From: Candidatus Wolfebacteria bacterium GW2011_GWE2_44_13
GTDB taxonomy: Bacteria; Patescibacteriota; Minisyncoccia; UBA6257; UBA9933
Reading direction: 5' to 3'
NCBI GenBank assembly: GCA_001000675.1
Contig: LCHW01000002.1
Span: forward strand, 133,310-167,186
Length of the DNA: 33,877 bases
Position numbers and translations under genes: made by a program. Shown here one piece after another: positions 20,362 to 29,064 of the stretch (within the stretch, counting starts at the first letter, position 1; every line of letters begins with the position of its first letter). A model generated the notes under the pieces. The model had not been told where the DNA came from, searched no databases, and was given only the letters and a program-made list of their open reading frames with translations.

Positions 20362-20392
20362 ATAAAAAATACCGCATATGCGGTATTTTTTA
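20362..20392 (+). terminator. Terminator after ychF
   Basis: AAAAAATACCGCatatGCGGTATTTTTT. Confidence 0.85.
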
Positions 20393-20410
20393 TGGTACAA
20401 TAAATGCATT

Positions 20411-22297
20411 ATGGAACAGTTTGTAAAAAAGAAAAACCTTGCTTTGAGCTTGCCAAGAGGATTTACGCTTGTCGAACTTCTTATAGTTATGGGAATCTTA
20501 ACAATTTTAGCAACGACAAGTGTAGTTGTGTTTAATCCGCTTGAATATAATCGACAATCGCGAGACACGAAACGCATCGGAGATCTGGAAGCAATCCAAG
20601 GGGCAATAGAAACGGCAAGAATTAGCAGCCCGAATATTTCATTAGGTACGTCAACGAACACAGTCTATGTTTCTTTACCAGATGCGACGCTTGTTGGGAA
20701 TGCGACATCTACGTGTGGAGGAGTCGCGGGTATGCCGGCGCTTCCGTCTGGGTGGCAGTATCAGTGTGTTTCCACTGCAAATGTTACAAAGATCAATGGA
20801 ACTGGTTGGCTCCCTATTAACTTCGATTCACTTCCTGTAAAATCTCCGTTAACAAAACTCCCTATGGATCCGAAGAACGAAACGGCGGATCGTTATTTTT
20901 ATACCTATATTCCGCAAGGGGGATTAACCGCAAAGTTGGAATCGCAAAAAAATATTGACAGTATCGGCGCAAAAGACGGAGGAATTGATAATATGTTGTA
21001 TGAAATAGGAAAAGCTCCAAATCCGATTGCGCTTGCAATGCCGCCAACGATGGTAACAAATGCAGCGACTTTAATGACACAAACCACGACAAGATTAAAT
21101 GGAACAGTAAATCCAAATGGCAGCGCAACAAACGCATGGTTCCGTTATGCAACAACGAATCCAGGAAGTTGTAATAATACATTCGGAACATCGACAATAG
21201 CACAAGCGAAAGGAAGCGGATCTGCTGCAAGTGCCTACACACAGGATATCACAGGGTTGTCTGCAAATACGACTTACTACTATTGTGGTATTGGTCAAAA
21301 TGGAGGAGGGCTAGGATATGGAGTCGTGCAGTCGTTTACAACAAATCGTTGGGCACGATTGCTCCCCGGGGGGAGTATTCCAGCAGCCCGATCTTCGCAC
21401 ACAGCCGTTTGGGACACGAACCAAGATGTATTGAGAGTGTTTGGCGGGTATACGTCTACCGGTTATATTGCGAATGATATGCAGGTGTACAGCCCGACGA
21501 CCAATGCATGGTCGGCGACCACAACTCCACTATCGGGTCGTTACGGACATGCCGCTGCATGGGATCCGACTGGTAGTCGAATGTTCATATTTGGTGGATA
21601 TGCCAGCGAGGGGAGTTTAACTTACAAAAACGACCTATGGCGATATACGGGAGGCGTATGGACGCAGCTATTGCCATCTGGAACAGCGCCATACGTAAGA
21701 ACGAACCACTCGGCGGTATGGGATGATGCCCAAGATAAACTGTATATTTATGGAGGTTCCTCAACAACAACGCAGTACCTAGGAGATCTTTGGACATACA
21801 ATGCAGGTCCAAACAGCTGGACAAAGTTAGTACCATCGGGAACGCCTCCGTGTGCACGAAACAATCACGACGCGGTATGGGACCCAGTACGAAGTCGCTT
21901 GTATATTTTTGGAGGGAGCGGAGAAACTCCGTGTACGGGATATATGAACGACCTATGGGCATATGACGTAGCAACTAATGCATGGATTAATCTTGGGCCA
22001 ACAGGCACGAAACCGGCGGGGCGTGTGGGGGCGAAAAGTGCTTGGAATGCATCGAGAGACGCCGCATATTTTTACGGAGGGATGCTTTCTGGAATTTCAT
22101 ACAACGCAGAGGTTTGGCAATATGCACCGGCGACAAACGCGTGGACGCAAATAACGACGACGGGTATGTTCCCTATGCTACCAGGGGGAACGTATCAGTC
22201 TGGGTTGGGTTGGAGGGATTTGATTGACGGGTTCTACATATTTGGTGGATATGCGGGGTCGTATTATAATCAGACTTGGATGTGGAAGGCTCAATAA
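20411..22297 (+). CDS. Type IV pilin-like protein with FN3-like region and C-terminal Kelch beta-propeller
   Basis: LPRGFTLVELLIVMGILTILATTSVVVFN prepilin motif; ATLMTQTTTRLNGTVNPNGSATNAWFRY...TGLSANTTYYYCGIGQN FN3-like; about six repeats with HxAVWDxxxDxLxxFGG...NDLWxY...NAW. Confidence 0.88.
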   Translation: MEQFVKKKNLALSLPRGFTLVELLIVMGILTILATTSVVVFNPLEYNRQSRDTKRIGDLEAIQGAIETARISSPNISLGTSTNTVYVSLPDATLVGNATSTCGGVAGMPALPSGWQYQCVSTANVTKINGTGWLPINFDSLPVKSPLTKLPMDPKNETADRYFYTYIPQGGLTAKLESQKNIDSIGAKDGGIDNMLYEIGKAPNPIALAMPPTMVTNAATLMTQTTTRLNGTVNPNGSATNAWFRYATTNPGSCNNTFGTSTIAQAKGSGSAASAYTQDITGLSANTTYYYCGIGQNGGGLGYGVVQSFTTNRWARLLPGGSIPAARSSHTAVWDTNQDVLRVFGGYTSTGYIANDMQVYSPTTNAWSATTTPLSGRYGHAAAWDPTGSRMFIFGGYASEGSLTYKNDLWRYTGGVWTQLLPSGTAPYVRTNHSAVWDDAQDKLYIYGGSSTTTQYLGDLWTYNAGPNSWTKLVPSGTPPCARNNHDAVWDPVRSRLYIFGGSGETPCTGYMNDLWAYDVATNAWINLGPTGTKPAGRVGAKSAWNASRDAAYFYGGMLSGISYNAEVWQYAPATNAWTQITTTGMFPMLPGGTYQSGLGWRDLIDGFYIFGGYAGSYYNQTWMWKAQ

Positions 22298-23225: not shown

Positions 23226-23618
23226 ATGAGTACCGTACCAAGGATTCTAATGGTTGATGATGATGTTGACTTAGCATCGATTATTTCGATGAAATTGCAG
23301 ACAGAAGGGTTTGATATTAAAACAGTCAGTAATCCTGACGTGGCGTTAGAGACTGTAAAGGAATTTAAGCCCGATTTAATATTACTCGACATCAACATGC
23401 CAGAAATGAATGGTACGGAATATTTGATCGAATTGCGTGATCTTCCAGACACAAAGAAAGTGAAAGTCATTTTCTTTACAAGCATGAGTAACCCATGGCC
23501 GATATTTAAAAATCGTGACGCCGTTGCAAAAGATTTAGGGGCGATAGATTTTATGGAAAAGGGGACTGACCTTGACCTAGTCGTTAAAAAAATACGAGAA
23601 ACGTTGATGAGTGAATAA
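23226..23618 (+). CDS. Single-domain response regulator (CheY-like receiver)
   Basis: ILMVDDDVDLASIISMKLQTEGFDIKTVSNPDVALETVKEFKPDLILLDINMPEMNGTEYL; no output domain. Confidence 0.92.
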   Translation: MSTVPRILMVDDDVDLASIISMKLQTEGFDIKTVSNPDVALETVKEFKPDLILLDINMPEMNGTEYLIELRDLPDTKKVKVIFFTSMSNPWPIFKNRDAVAKDLGAIDFMEKGTDLDLVVKKIRETLMSE

Positions 23619-23628
23619 GGAGTATATT

Positions 23629-23656
23629 ACGGAGGGCGCATATGCGCCCTCCGTTT
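23629..23656 (+). terminator. Long perfect palindrome/terminator between receiver gene and adenylate-forming enzyme operon
   Basis: ACGGAGGGCGCATATGCGCCCTCCGTTTT. Confidence 0.75.
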
Positions 23657-23692
23657 TGTATAAAGTCTATAATCGTCTATAATGGGGGCAAT

Positions 23693-25228
23693 ATGACAGC
23701 GAAAAAAGACTATTCGGCAGAGCAGATAATAAAATTCTTTTCTGAAAAAGACAGTAAGTGGTGGGAAAAGGAAGGGCAAGCGCGCGCACTCGCGCTATTT
23801 CACGATGCTGCGGTTCGTGTTCCGGCATACAAAGATTTTCTTAAGAAGAACAAGATTAATCACACGAAGATAACAACGTGGGAAGATTTTCAATCGGTTC
23901 CACTAACAAGTAAAAAGGATTACTTAAAAAAATATCCGTTGGAACAGCTTTGCTGGGATGGAAATTTGAATAAACCACTTGTGTTTACGGCTACTTCCGG
24001 TTCTACGGGAGAGCCGTTTTATTTTCCTCGGACGGAAGGAGTAGATAAAAATGCCGCAATTATTCACGAGTTTTTTTTACTTAACAATACTTATAATACT
24101 AAAAAACCGACGCTAGTCATTGTTGCTTTTGGGATGGGTATTTGGATTGGAGGGTTAATAACGTATAAAGCGTTTGAAATCGCCGCACAACGTGCAGGGT
24201 ACCCAGTTTCAATAATCACTCCGGGGCTAAATAAAAAAGAAGTGCTCAATGCGCTTGAAAAGATTGCTCCAAACTATGGGCAAGTAATTTTGGCGGGATA
24301 TCCACCGATGGTAAAAGACATTATTGATGAAGGGATTGCGCAGGGGATTGATTTTAAAAAGCTGAATATGCGACTCGTGACTGCGGCGGAAGCATATACG
24401 GAAAACTTCAGGGACTATCTTATAGAAAAAACAGGCATTAAAAATTTGTTCCATGATGTTATGAGTATTTATGGTTCAGCAGACATCGGCGCAATGGCAT
24501 TTGAAACGCCAACAGCTATTCTTATGCGAAGATTAGCCATGAGGAAAAGAGAGCTTTTTGAGAATATTTTTTCAGAAATTAAAAAAACGCCAACATTAGT
24601 GCAATATAATCCATTGCAGATACTGTTCGAGGCTCCAAAAGGAGAAGTAGTCCTTACGGGAGATAGTGCTATTCCATTAATCCGATACGCCATTGGAGAT
24701 AATGGAGGTGTGGCAGGATACGATGCATTAGTAGGGCGCGTGGAGAAGGAGGGTATTGATTGGGGGAAAGAGGTGAAAAAAGCAAAAATAGGTTCAACAC
24801 AAAAACTTCCGTTTGTGTATGTGTATGAGCGAAATGATTTTTCGACCACCTTGTATGGCTTACAAATTTATCCGGAAACAATCAGAGAGGCGTTACTAAA
24901 AGATTGCCTTAATAATCATGTGACGGGGAAGTTTTCCATGGCGACTTCATTTGATGGCGAGCAAAATCAATATTTAGAAATAAATATTGAGCTCAAGAAG
25001 GGAATTACAGTAGACAAAAATGGAGCGGTTGTATGTAAAGAAGGAGAAGAGGATTTAATGCAAACAGTAACAAAAGAAATAACAGAATTTTTAAAAGCAA
25101 AGAATGCTGAGTTCAATGAGCTTTCAAAAAATCTAAAAGAACGGGCAACGCCGAAGATCGTGCTGTGGCCGGCGGAACACCCAACACATTTTAAGCCAGG
25201 AACAAAACAAAAATGGATACAAAAATAA
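23693..25228 (+). CDS. PaaK/phenylacetate-CoA ligase-like adenylate-forming enzyme
   Basis: FTATSGSTGEPFYFPR (P-loop-like), MSIYGSADIGAMA, GEVVLTGDSAIPLIRYAIGDNGGV. Confidence 0.82.
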   Translation: MTAKKDYSAEQIIKFFSEKDSKWWEKEGQARALALFHDAAVRVPAYKDFLKKNKINHTKITTWEDFQSVPLTSKKDYLKKYPLEQLCWDGNLNKPLVFTATSGSTGEPFYFPRTEGVDKNAAIIHEFFLLNNTYNTKKPTLVIVAFGMGIWIGGLITYKAFEIAAQRAGYPVSIITPGLNKKEVLNALEKIAPNYGQVILAGYPPMVKDIIDEGIAQGIDFKKLNMRLVTAAEAYTENFRDYLIEKTGIKNLFHDVMSIYGSADIGAMAFETPTAILMRRLAMRKRELFENIFSEIKKTPTLVQYNPLQILFEAPKGEVVLTGDSAIPLIRYAIGDNGGVAGYDALVGRVEKEGIDWGKEVKKAKIGSTQKLPFVYVYERNDFSTTLYGLQIYPETIREALLKDCLNNHVTGKFSMATSFDGEQNQYLEINIELKKGITVDKNGAVVCKEGEEDLMQTVTKEITEFLKAKNAEFNELSKNLKERATPKIVLWPAEHPTHFKPGTKQKWIQK

Positions 25229-26349
25229 AACCAATACAGTGGAATAAGAGCGAAGGCAGTCTCGAGGAATTTAAAAAGCGATTAGAAATTCGTGAAATTA
25301 TTGATGCGTACGATGCATTGCTTGATGAGTTGTTTCAGGTGCGTAATCCGAAATATAAATTTATTCCTGAACATAAAGAGGATTGCGCGGCGTTTAAAGA
25401 AGAATATCTCGCAGGGGTGTCTATGGAAGAACATGGGGAGTGGTTTTATTTCCCGTATACAAAAAATGTAATTCATTATTTGCCAGATGAAGTGCATCAG
25501 GAATTGCGCACAGCACGTAACAAAAATCTTATTACAAAAGAAGAGCAGGAAAAATTCTATAACTACACAGTTGCAATCGCGGGCTTGAGTGTAGGGAGCC
25601 ATCCGGCACTTGCTATTGCAACGATGGGAGGTGCAAAAAAAATAAAGATAGCAGATGCGGATGAAGTATCTGGGCCAAACCTGAATCGATTGCGCTACGA
25701 TTGTTCAACACTCGGGAAGAACAAGGCGCATTTGGTGGCAAGTCATATTTTTCAATTAAATCCATATGGCGAAGTTGAAATATATGATAATGGCGTGACT
25801 GCGGAAAATATGGATGCATTCTTAAGCGGAGCCGACGTTGTTATCGAAGAAGTAGACTTTTTGCCGATGAAAATTATGTTGCGTGAGGCGGCAAGAAAGA
25901 AGGGAATACCGCTTATCATGGCAACGGACAATGGAGACGGAGTTATCGTTGATGTGGAGCGATATGATATCGATCCAGCATTGCAATTGTTCAATGGCGC
26001 CGCAGGAGATATTTCAATGGAAACGCTCAAAACAATGACGCCAACTGATTTGCCAAAGCTCGCAACACAGATTGCGGGTCCGTATATGGTGGTCCCGCGT
26101 ATGCAGCAGTCTATTTTAGAGGTGGGCAAGACGCTCTATTCATGGCCACAGCTGGGCGATGCTGCGATATTGTGTGGGCCAGTGATTGCATATTTAGTGA
26201 AGCGACTTGCGCTAAGACAGAAGGTAAATTCAGGGAAATTCGATGTAAGCTTGGATGCCATCTTGGACCCCGATTACCACACGGAAGAGGCAAAGGCAAA
26301 AAGGGAAGCAGAAATAAAAGAAGTGCATAAGGTAATAGGATTTGAATAA
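25213..26349 (+). CDS. ThiF/MoeB/HesA-family E1-like adenylyltransferase
   Basis: NYTVAIAGLSVGSHPALAIATMGGAKKIKIADADEVSGPNLNRLRYDCSTLGKNKAHLVASHIFQLNP; overlaps upstream gene by 16 nt. Confidence 0.88.
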   Translation: MDTKIKPIQWNKSEGSLEEFKKRLEIREIIDAYDALLDELFQVRNPKYKFIPEHKEDCAAFKEEYLAGVSMEEHGEWFYFPYTKNVIHYLPDEVHQELRTARNKNLITKEEQEKFYNYTVAIAGLSVGSHPALAIATMGGAKKIKIADADEVSGPNLNRLRYDCSTLGKNKAHLVASHIFQLNPYGEVEIYDNGVTAENMDAFLSGADVVIEEVDFLPMKIMLREAARKKGIPLIMATDNGDGVIVDVERYDIDPALQLFNGAAGDISMETLKTMTPTDLPKLATQIAGPYMVVPRMQQSILEVGKTLYSWPQLGDAAILCGPVIAYLVKRLALRQKVNSGKFDVSLDAILDPDYHTEEAKAKREAEIKEVHKVIGFE

Positions 26350-27410
26350 TGATCGAAAAGACAATAATACAATCAATTATCGAAGAGGCGGTTAATGCAC
26401 CATCGGGCGATAATTCGCAGCCATGGCGATTTGAAGTGAGCGAAAATTTAATCGATATATATAATCTCGTAGGAAGAGATGCAACTCTATTTAATTTCAG
26501 AAATAGAGGTGATTTTTTGGCACATGGTGCTTTGATTGAAAATATAGGCATAGTAGCCGAACAGTTTGGATACACCGCAATCGTAGCCTTATTACCCGAA
26601 GAAGGAAGAAGCGACCATACCGCAACGATTCGATTAGAAAAGGCGACGGAGAAAAAAGGAGATGGGTTGTTCAAGGCAATCCGTGAACGGGCGACTAACC
26701 GAAAGATATATAAAGCATACGAACTAACCGAAGAAGAAAAGAAAAGTATCGAGGCAATAAAAAGCGAAGGAAGCGCCGAGATTCACTTGGCAACTTCGCG
26801 CGATGACGTGCAAGCATTAGCGACCATTGTTAGCTTGAACGAGCGGTTACTGTTGGAAAATAAGCATATTCACGACTTCCTATTCTCCATTATTCGTTGG
26901 ACGGATAAAGAAGAAGAAGGGAAGCCGGGTATGCACGTGGAAACACTCGAGCTCGCGCTACCACAGCGCTTCGCATTTGCCCGGTTTAAAAACTGGAAGT
27001 TTGTCCAATGGGCTAACAAATTTGGAATTTCGAAATTTATCGCAAAAGAAAACGCAAAGTTGTATGCATCGTCTTCTGCAATCGGTGCTATAATTATGGC
27101 AGGAGATTCGCCAAAGGATTTCATATTAGCAGGAAGACTATTGGAGCGTATGTGGCTAACACTTACAGACAGCGAATTAAGCTTGCAGCCGGTTACTGCG
27201 GTTGCATATCTCGCACAACGTATCAAAGCTGGCGAAGCAAATGAGCTATCAGCAGCGCATCAGGAATTGGTGAAAAAAGCGGATAAAGAAACGAGGAAGA
27301 TATTAAGTATCGGAGATGAAACTATTGCTATGGTGTTTCGCATTGGTAAGGCGGAGAAGCCGAGTAGAAAATCGATTAAGGTAAAGCCCGACATACAGTG
27401 GAAAGAATAA
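26349..27410 (+). CDS. Nitroreductase-fold protein (Rv1355c C-terminal-like)
   Basis: IIEEAVNAPSGDNSQPWRFEVSENLIDIYNL; TAATG overlap with the upstream stop. Confidence 0.75.
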   Translation: MIEKTIIQSIIEEAVNAPSGDNSQPWRFEVSENLIDIYNLVGRDATLFNFRNRGDFLAHGALIENIGIVAEQFGYTAIVALLPEEGRSDHTATIRLEKATEKKGDGLFKAIRERATNRKIYKAYELTEEEKKSIEAIKSEGSAEIHLATSRDDVQALATIVSLNERLLLENKHIHDFLFSIIRWTDKEEEGKPGMHVETLELALPQRFAFARFKNWKFVQWANKFGISKFIAKENAKLYASSSAIGAIIMAGDSPKDFILAGRLLERMWLTLTDSELSLQPVTAVAYLAQRIKAGEANELSAAHQELVKKADKETRKILSIGDETIAMVFRIGKAEKPSRKSIKVKPDIQWKE

Positions 27411-27414
27411 AAAT

Positions 27415-29064
27415 ATGAGTATTTGGTTTTTATATAATATAGATTTATTGATATCAGGAATCGCAGCAGCAGCTATTGGTATTTTAGGTTTCGCTGTATT
27501 TTACAGAGATAGAAAGAGTGTCACGGCAAAGTCGTTGCTTGCATTCTCACTCATTACAATCGCATGGGGAGCGGCAAACTATTTTTCGTATAAGATCGCA
27601 GATCTTGAAGTTGCTTTTTGGTTAATTCGGCTTGTGCTATTTATTGCCACATGGCATGCATTAGCATTATTTACGTTGTTTCTTGTTTTCCCTCAGACAG
27701 AAATAGTGTTTCCTAAGTGGTATGAGTGGCTCGTGGGTGTTACGGGGATAACATCGCTACTCACGCTTTCTCCCCTGGTTTTTTCAGGGATAGAAACAGT
27801 TTCAGCTACGGGGCAAATAACGGGAGTTGTTACTCGACCCGGAATTGCGATTTTTGGAGTTGTAGTGTTTGGGATAATTATTGGTGGGTTAACCATTCTT
27901 GTTAAGAAGACACAAAGAGCGACAGGCATCGAGCGAAAGCAATTCAAGCTGGTACTTGCGGGAGCCGCTATAACATTTGTATTAATAGGAGTTTTTAACT
28001 TTATTTTTCCAGTAATTTTTAAAAATTCAAATTTTTATCCCTTTGCGATGGCATCTGTGGTTCCATTCATTGCATTTGTATTTTATGCAATCGCGCGGCT
28101 GCATTTACTCAAGATCAGAGTTATTGCAACAGAAATATTTACATTTCTCTTAGTCGCCTTATCATTTATTGAAATAGTATTTTCTGTCACCGCAACGCAG
28201 GTAATGATAAGGGGTTTGATTTTTATATTGCTCAGTGTTCTTGCAATACTACTTATTCGTGGACAAATTCGCGAAGTAGAACAAAAAGAAAAGCTACAAC
28301 TACTGACCAAGGAATTAGAAAAAGCCAACGAAGAATTAAAAAGTACAGAAAAGTTAAAAGCAGAGTTCTTCTCGTTCGCAGCGCACCAAGTAAAATCGCC
28401 TATGGCGGTTATTAAAGGATATGCAACGTTAATTGGTGACGGCACGCTCGCAGGCGCACCAGCAGATAAAATTGTCGAGATCGCAAAAAAAATCGGAGCT
28501 GCTGCAGGTCGTACACTTTCGATGGTAAATAACTTGCTCGACATGCGAAAGATAGAAGAGGGGAGAATGGTGTATTCATTTGAAGAACTAAACGTTGTTC
28601 CGCCGATTCGCACGATTGTAACGGATTTAGAAACCATCGCGAAAGATAAAGGCCTTGCCTTAACATTTGAAGCATCACAAGAGGAGATTATTCTGAATAT
28701 GGATATTCAGAAGTTTGCACAGGTTATTCAGAACCTTATCGACAATGCAGTCAAATACACCGATGCCGGTTGGGTTAAGGTGGGGGTAAGTTTAAACGAC
28801 AATAAGGTTGTATTTGCCGTTTCCGATTCAGGAAGAGGTATTTCAAAAGAATTTGCGGCAAATATGTTTTCGCAATTTGCTCGTGATCCGGCATTAGCGA
28901 AAGATACAAAAGGAACGGGGCTTGGACTCTTTATCGCTAAGCAGATCGTCGAAGCCCATGGGGGCACTATCAAGGCATCTTCAGAGGGGGAGGGGTCTGG
29001 CAGCGCCTTCACAGTGGAAATCCCGCAGGATAATAAAGCAGTTACCGATGCGATGGCAAGCTAA
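27415..29064 (+). CDS. Multi-TM sensor histidine kinase
   Basis: About seven hydrophobic segments, then FSFAAHQVKSPMAVIKGYATLIGDG (HisKA), VIQNLIDNAVKYTD, FAVSDSGRGI, KGTGLGLFIAKQIVEAHGG. Confidence 0.93.
   Translation: MSIWFLYNIDLLISGIAAAAIGILGFAVFYRDRKSVTAKSLLAFSLITIAWGAANYFSYKIADLEVAFWLIRLVLFIATWHALALFTLFLVFPQTEIVFPKWYEWLVGVTGITSLLTLSPLVFSGIETVSATGQITGVVTRPGIAIFGVVVFGIIIGGLTILVKKTQRATGIERKQFKLVLAGAAITFVLIGVFNFIFPVIFKNSNFYPFAMASVVPFIAFVFYAIARLHLLKIRVIATEIFTFLLVALSFIEIVFSVTATQVMIRGLIFILLSVLAILLIRGQIREVEQKEKLQLLTKELEKANEELKSTEKLKAEFFSFAAHQVKSPMAVIKGYATLIGDGTLAGAPADKIVEIAKKIGAAAGRTLSMVNNLLDMRKIEEGRMVYSFEELNVVPPIRTIVTDLETIAKDKGLALTFEASQEEIILNMDIQKFAQVIQNLIDNAVKYTDAGWVKVGVSLNDNKVVFAVSDSGRGISKEFAANMFSQFARDPALAKDTKGTGLGLFIAKQIVEAHGGTIKASSEGEGSGSAFTVEIPQDNKAVTDAMAS

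Follow-up and report, generated by a model that had tools for sequence, protein, structure and literature searches.

The locus studied here raises the question of what a PaaK-like ligase, a ThiF-like protein, a nitroreductase-like protein and a multi-pass sensor histidine kinase, encoded side by side, might make and sense together. It lies in a 33,877-nucleotide stretch of contig LCHW01000002.1 of Candidatus Wolfebacteria bacterium GW2011_GWE2_44_13 (the whole stretch is hereafter called the window), part of a 922,656-base genome rated 99.6% complete. Its nearest named relatives, judged by PaaK (76-77% identity), are Candidatus Wolfebacteria of the Candidate Phyla Radiation (CPR). By analogy with characterized homologues, we consider with moderate confidence that the four genes form a self-contained signal synthase and receptor for an N-(aryl)acyl-oxazolone (or related) autoinducer. 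The original prediction, made from the sequence alone, had proposed a modified metabolite or peptide that is both made and sensed; the metabolite part is sustained by the oxazolone enzyme family, the co-conservation of the genes and the pairing of seven-transmembrane (7TM) kinases with synthases, and the peptide part is not retained.

Organization of the operon

The operon occupies positions 23693-29064 of the window on the + strand, and the features of the region are as follows (AF2, AlphaFold2 model):

23693..25228, + strand: PaaK-like adenylate-forming ligase (NCBIfam profiles, AF2 fold, conserved ANL motifs)
25213..26349, + strand: ThiF/E1-like adenylating cyclase of Rv1355c (TrzS/OxzB) type (NCBIfam, Rhodococcus homologue, ATP-site residues)
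26349..27410, + strand: nitroreductase-fold flavin oxidase (FDO-A/Acg-like), predicted desaturase (NCBIfam, PSGxNSQPW motif)
27415..29064, + strand: sensor histidine kinase with a 7TM region (about 27415-28131) followed by HisKA and HATPase (Pfam, AF2)
23226..23618, + strand: stand-alone CheY-like receiver (Response_reg 9e-21)
23629..23654, + strand: intrinsic terminator at the receiver/operon boundary (stem and fold score)

The translational coupling claimed for the four open reading frames (ORFs) is borne out at each junction: PaaK and ThiF overlap by 16 bp (ThiF start 25213, PaaK end 25228), ThiF and the nitroreductase (NTR) have one base in common (TAATG at 26349), and 4 bp separate the NTR stop from the kinase ATG. 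The palindromic terminator described between the receiver and PaaK was likewise recovered, with an 11-bp stem (9 GC) and a fold z of -4.7. Because the first ATG of the PaaK ORF (23642) sits inside this hairpin, the true PaaK start is most likely 23693. The earlier family calls also stand, with Pfam matches to Response_reg, ThiF (1e-21), Nitroreductase (2e-5, over the cut-off), HisKA, HATPase_c and HisKA_7TM.

Conservation across CPR genomes

The original prediction had named co-conservation beforehand as its refuting test; the genes do co-occur and stay linked. Across a census of 287 CPR genomes, ThiF of this type occurs in 36 and PaaK in 42, with both in 33. PaaK is present in 33/36 ThiF-positive genomes versus 9/251 others (odds ratio about 296, Fisher p=1.3e-31), and in 31/36 the two genes lie within 5 kb of each other on the same strand. 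In a separate set of 80 named CPR loci, found by a scan of genome contigs with a profile of 12 PaaK sequences that reaches close relatives only, all four genes are present in 53 and some others are truncated at contig ends; the median gaps across CPR loci are 4 bp (PaaK-ThiF), 3 bp (ThiF-NTR) and 2 bp (NTR-kinase). The loci span Wolfe-, Harrison-, Lipton-, Magasanik-, Kaiser- and Roizmanbacteria, Woese-, Nomura-, Uhr-, Doudna- and Gracilibacteria, and others. In six (L103, L104, L107, L110, L112 and L114; L numbers are our locus labels), PaaK and ThiF-NTR are several genes apart in the same neighbourhood. Since gene order and coupling recur across CPR, the arrangement is far beyond chance.

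By their names alone, PaaK, ThiF and nitroreductase would be annotated as an ordinary catabolic or anabolic operon, for aromatic acid coenzyme A ligation or for thiamin or molybdopterin synthesis, with the kinase adjacent by chance. We regard this explanation as scarcely tenable. Chance linkage of kinase and enzymes is refuted by its recurrence in many CPR lineages. The PaaK-like protein scores 54.7 bits against the PaaK model TIGR02155, far under the equivalog threshold of 646.3, and plain PaaK catabolism was rejected on this score; a molybdopterin or thiamin role was rejected because the ThiF belongs to another subfamily, that of Rv1355c.

Comparison with Wolfebacteria relatives gives protein identities of 86-89% for ThiF, 78% for PaaK and 65-78% for the kinase, while synonymous sites are near saturation. 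Selection thus maintains these genes, which are under strong purifying selection; the nitroreductase is less conserved (44-52% identity in two Wolfebacteria relatives).

In one Wolfebacteria relative (L075:10628-13776), the NTR is reduced to a fragment of 186 aa that lies some 2.6 kb away from ThiF; other ORFs intervene and no kinase was seen at the locus, which points to a copy that is decaying or has been rearranged. PaaK and ThiF also occur together, without the kinase, on a contig of 66% GC that is labelled Pseudomonadota (L133:3108-5857); this may be an instance outside CPR or a binning error.

ThiF and nitroreductase resemble oxazolone synthases

The ThiF protein matches the NCBIfam Rv1355c family at 5e-85 (286 of 476 bits, for a model that covers the whole fusion) and shares 35% identity with a Rhodococcus Rv1355c-family protein across 322 aa. 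The nitroreductase matches PRK14851 (1e-64), the Rv1355c family (7e-56) and the Acg family (6e-44), carries the PSGxNSQPW motif and aligns along its length with the NTR half of the Rhodococcus fusion at 22% identity. Judged by these matches, the two proteins are split homologues of the Rv1355c family, as the original prediction had supposed in describing a fused pair separated here. Rv1355c is TrzS, and TrzS, TyzB/TyzC and OxzB convert N-acyl amino acids into oxazolones, with ThiF cyclising at the expense of ATP and the flavoenzyme desaturating with O2; both reactions have been shown experimentally in Pseudoalteromonas and mycobacteria (PMC12856293, PMC10404671).

The ATP site of ThiF is intact, with G124, G128, N156, N158, R159, K171 and D215 invariant in 38 homologues, D215 being part of an EExD motif common to Rhodococcus Rv1355c proteins. 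In the same comparison none of its only three cysteines (58, 164 and 321) is conserved, which agrees with the earlier remark that the E1-like protein shows no obvious catalytic Cys and therefore suggests non-ubiquitin-like carboxylate adenylation. A role as E1 of ubiquitin-like proteins was rejected on this ground. Many ThiF-like proteins nevertheless adenylate the C-terminus of a peptide or small protein, according to a review (PMC12250964), and a ribosomally synthesized and post-translationally modified peptide or a ubiquitin-like system, with NTR and PaaK as tailoring enzymes, would fit such a precedent. We consider this highly improbable: the abutting and overlapping genes leave no room for a precursor gene, the conserved cysteine is missing, and the closest functional relatives use free N-acyl amino acids, so that peptide modification is not supported.

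That N-acyl amino acids are the substrates of ThiF is indicated independently by other CPR loci. The N-acyl amino acid synthase FeeM stands in for PaaK next to a 7TM kinase at L067, L169, L194 and L224, either beside ThiF or, in L067, fused to it; this fusion also speaks against a peptide substrate.

The operon thus shares with OxzAB (Pseudoalteromonas rubra), TyzACB and TrzAS (Mycobacterium tuberculosis) a ThiF cyclase of the same family and an FDO-type nitroreductase, split in the arrangement of TyzB/TyzC. A neighbouring enzyme supplies the N-acyl amino acid in those systems, a part that we propose for PaaK here. In contrast to them, the operon occurs in CPR, has a PaaK-fold ligase and an aromatic amino acid deaminase in place of the TyzA/OxzA-type acyltransferase, and includes the 7TM histidine kinase. 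Signalling genes also occur near known clusters, namely c-di-GMP genes beside trzAS (PMC12856293). On Rhodococcus plasmids, we further observed GGDEF genes two genes before Rv1355c-type ThiF-nitroreductase fusions (L071:1713-2864, L072:1820-2800), another link between oxazolone enzymes and signalling.

The PaaK-like ligase and the gene before it

The PaaK-like protein has no Pfam match, and its NCBIfam matches to PaaK (6e-15) and FlxY (2e-9) are both far under the equivalog cut-offs. Profile comparison with PaaK from the PDB gave 5e-20, and Foldseek placed its AF2 model (pLDDT 89) closest to PaaK1 (E 6e-24), with AjiA1 and ClxA also found. The PaaK fold called originally is accordingly backed by the model, and the ThiF and NTR calls by family membership. 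The ANL motifs TSGSTGEP and TGD..RY and a C-terminal Lys are conserved among 31 PaaK homologues.

For the PaaK-fold ligases NatL2, AjiA1 and ClxA, the substrate is an aromatic acid, which the enzyme activates and links directly to an amine or hydroxyl group (PMC7204872, PMC12519233). Of these, ClxA has been described as an amide ligase (PMC12519233), and NatL2 likewise joins the activated acid directly to its partner (PMC7204872). The operon protein has the same PaaK-like fold, but differs from them in its ~17% structural-alignment identity and greater length (511 vs about 400-430 aa). By analogy, its probable role is to activate an acid, presumably a deaminated aromatic one, and to link this acid to an amino acid, amide formation being what we infer from these ligases.

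The genes around PaaK point to the nature of this acid. Among 118 PaaK genes, with neighbours counted if on the same strand and at most five genes away, 38 are preceded by the gene of an ELFV dehydrogenase, 17 by that of a class I aminotransferase and 5 by that of an aromatic lyase, and no two of these enzymes were found together. Their best named models are the Trp dehydrogenase ScyB (1e-85) and HisC and, for the lyases, the Tyr ammonia-lyase FlxA (1e-188) or Tyr 2,3-aminomutase (over the cut-off). Since all except the mutase strip the amino group from an amino acid, mostly an aromatic one, their common role is probably to feed a deaminated aromatic acid to PaaK. The genome studied here holds a single class I/II aminotransferase, encoded elsewhere, and no ELFV dehydrogenase or aromatic lyase was found in it. 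Methyltransferases and alpha/beta hydrolases are occasional extra genes at CPR PaaK/ThiF loci.

The 7TM sensor kinase and its synthase neighbours

All three Pfam domains of the kinase score over their cut-offs, HisKA_7TM (PF16927) at 2.6e-8 (34.4 vs 28.6 bits), and the protein is the sole HisKA_7TM match in its genome. The AF2 model of the 7TM region (pLDDT 93) shows seven helices with a beta-hairpin between helices 4 and 5. Nearly all its nearest PDB structures are G-protein-coupled receptors (GPCRs), with weak scores (E 0.02-0.1, TM-score 0.34-0.59), a resemblance between model and structures and not proof of a relation. The multi-pass 7TM input foreseen from the sequence is confirmed, whereas its description as LuxN-like gives way to HisKA_7TM. 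Haloarchaeal HisKA_7TM kinases have this N-terminal domain family in common, and no ligand or synthase pairing was found described for them in the available part of PMC5847659.

HisKA_7TM matches occur in 128/287 CPR genomes. We collected 141 7TM kinases, from 39 loci selected through ThiF, 100 selected through the kinase domain alone, and the window. For 125 of them, another gene on the same strand lies no more than 150 bp upstream, often that of a small-molecule synthase; non-7TM control kinases in the same loci numbered 7, too few for a comparison of upstream genes. The upstream partners include PaaK, ThiF or NTR, FeeM/LuxI, BioF/CqsA-family enzymes, a KASIII protein like PpyS, pyruvoyl histidine decarboxylase, ornithine/diaminopimelate decarboxylase, dimethylargininase and several methyltransferase families. 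The 7TM-domain tree follows the class of neighbour, with 28 changes against a shuffled mean of 50 and a minimum of 44 in 200 shuffles; it was built by a fast method and has long branches, and common descent contributes to its clustering.

Individual loci illustrate these pairings. A LuxI/FeeM-family protein over the Pfam autoinducer-synthase cut-off lies directly before a HisKA_7TM kinase (L163:6307-6933), as do BioF/CqsA-family alpha-oxoamine synthases at L229:2716-3987, L205:3839-5086 and L213:2-964, whose paired sensor domains form one branch of the tree. At L210:6440-7327, a pyruvoyl-type histidine decarboxylase 26 bp before the kinase suggests that a CPR bacterium may both produce and sense a histamine-like amine. 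A divergent methyltransferase-like cluster of about 300-400 aa, 'MT20' (L165, L184, L214, L238 and others), directly precedes ~12 HisKA_7TM kinases and is possibly a signal synthase using S-adenosylmethionine.

Unlikely in our estimate, the main rival to an autoinducer receptor is that the kinase reads membrane state, redox or oxygen and regulates an oxazolone or N-acyl amino acid serving as a membrane lipid, antimicrobial or host-directed compound. Known oxazolones are indeed mostly cell-associated, stress-linked lipids of unknown role (PMC12856293), and the kinase and biosynthesis genes would be co-transcribed under either explanation. Yet the same kinase family lies beside chemically unrelated synthases, including those of the LuxI and CqsA families, the 7TM domain varies with synthase class, which fits ligand recognition better, and the operon encodes no DNA-binding regulator.

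The product could also be a light-absorbing aryl-oxazolone chromophore bound by the 7TM domain, making the kinase a photoreceptor; the aromatic precursors, the conjugated oxazolone and a few microbial rhodopsins among the weak fold matches lean this way. A Tyr ammonia-lyase together with an acid ligase resembles the route to the photoactive yellow protein chromophore, a parallel on the same side. Absorption lies near 360 nm for tyrazolones and near 400 nm for tryptazolones (PMC12856293). Many of the genomes with these genes come from groundwater, where there is no light, and related 7TM kinases pair with non-chromophore synthases such as the pyruvoyl histidine decarboxylase, so we judge this alternative very unlikely.

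A proposed route to an oxazolone autoinducer

In the autoinducer pathway that we favour, an aromatic amino acid would first be deaminated, in most relatives by the enzyme encoded just before PaaK; in this genome the only class I/II aminotransferase would probably do so. The PaaK-like enzyme would then adenylate the acid and attach it to an amino acid through the amine of the latter. The resulting N-acyl amino acid has precedents in the products of PaaK-fold amide ligases such as ClxA and NatL2, insofar as these enzymes form amides. From the homologues, ThiF is predicted to adenylate the carboxylate and close the ring to an azlactone (oxazolone), which the nitroreductase-fold flavoenzyme would desaturate. 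The amphipathic product may enter the membrane and bind the 7TM domain of the co-encoded kinase, as their conserved pairing suggests, and the kinase would signal to a receiver. Overall, this would amount to CqsA/CqsS-type quorum sensing with different chemistry.

Several observations weigh against this pathway. No deaminase-type gene is present in cis in the window, and a TyzA/OxzA/FeeM-type N-acyltransferase, the hallmark of known oxazolone clusters, is absent from the operon. Known oxazolone enzymes need O2, yet many carrier genomes come from groundwater. Since some loci are without NTR, desaturation of the product may not take place in all of them. Gene linkage and sensor-tree clustering owe partly to common descent, many upstream partners outside the oxazolone group are methyltransferases or of no assigned family, and the genes might also have stayed adjacent because the kinase controls the pathway on another cue.

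More tentatively than for the operon itself, we propose that the HisKA_7TM kinases of CPR form a large family of GPCR-like chemoreceptors in which every receptor is encoded together with the enzyme that makes its ligand. One widespread branch would use a new autoinducer class, N-arylacyl oxazolones (or their open dehydro-amino-acid forms), which PaaK-ThiF-NTR would produce from aromatic amino acids.

Relation to known synthase-kinase pairs

Synthase-kinase pairs in CPR have been known since 2020: the available part of Bernard et al. (PMC7567580) reports CqsA (51), LuxI (18) and PpyS (3) homologues beside sensor kinases. As in the CqsA/CqsS, LqsA/LqsS, PpyS- and LuxI-kinase pairs, a small-molecule synthase gene in the operon stands directly beside a multi-TM histidine kinase, an adjacency kept across lineages. 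Unlike those pairs, PaaK, ThiF and NTR fall outside the autoinducer synthase families given in that part of the paper, and the predicted chemistry is different and multi-step. The survey took only known autoinducer synthases, and the same part mentions neither PaaK-ThiF-NTR, FeeM-ThiF nor HisKA_7TM. What is new is the operon and its predicted oxazolone-type chemistry; no earlier description of the PaaK-ThiF-NTR branch with a common HisKA_7TM receptor was found in the literature searched, which excluded most subscription papers.

If our interpretation is true, CPR bacteria use chemical communication of a type not previously described in them. Carrier genomes measure about 0.6-1.4 Mb, and CPR bacteria keep few biosynthetic pathways; the operon is a concrete and widespread candidate language. 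The biosynthesis of oxazolone lipids is solved and their role unknown, and the coupling of the same enzymes to a receptor kinase makes a signalling role directly testable. It also suggests a rule for HisKA_7TM ligands, namely to inspect the gene immediately upstream.

The stand-alone receiver and neighbouring genes

The receiver adjoins the operon in the window, as originally described, and may be a phosphotransfer partner of the kinase; a receiver lies within two genes of 30/141 7TM kinases. That it is a dedicated partner is doubtful. The terminator cuts it off from the operon, and in the Wolfebacteria relatives L074 and L076 the receiver (41-42% identical) lies 1-4 kb from PaaK. For these reasons we do not take it as a core partner, and it is less firmly part of the unit than the four coupled genes. 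In L074, it directly follows a 289-aa gene that holds the place of the aldolase in the window. Two genes upstream of the receiver, the window encodes a large protein (20378-22297) with a type IV pilin-like N-terminus followed by apparent Kelch-type repeats.

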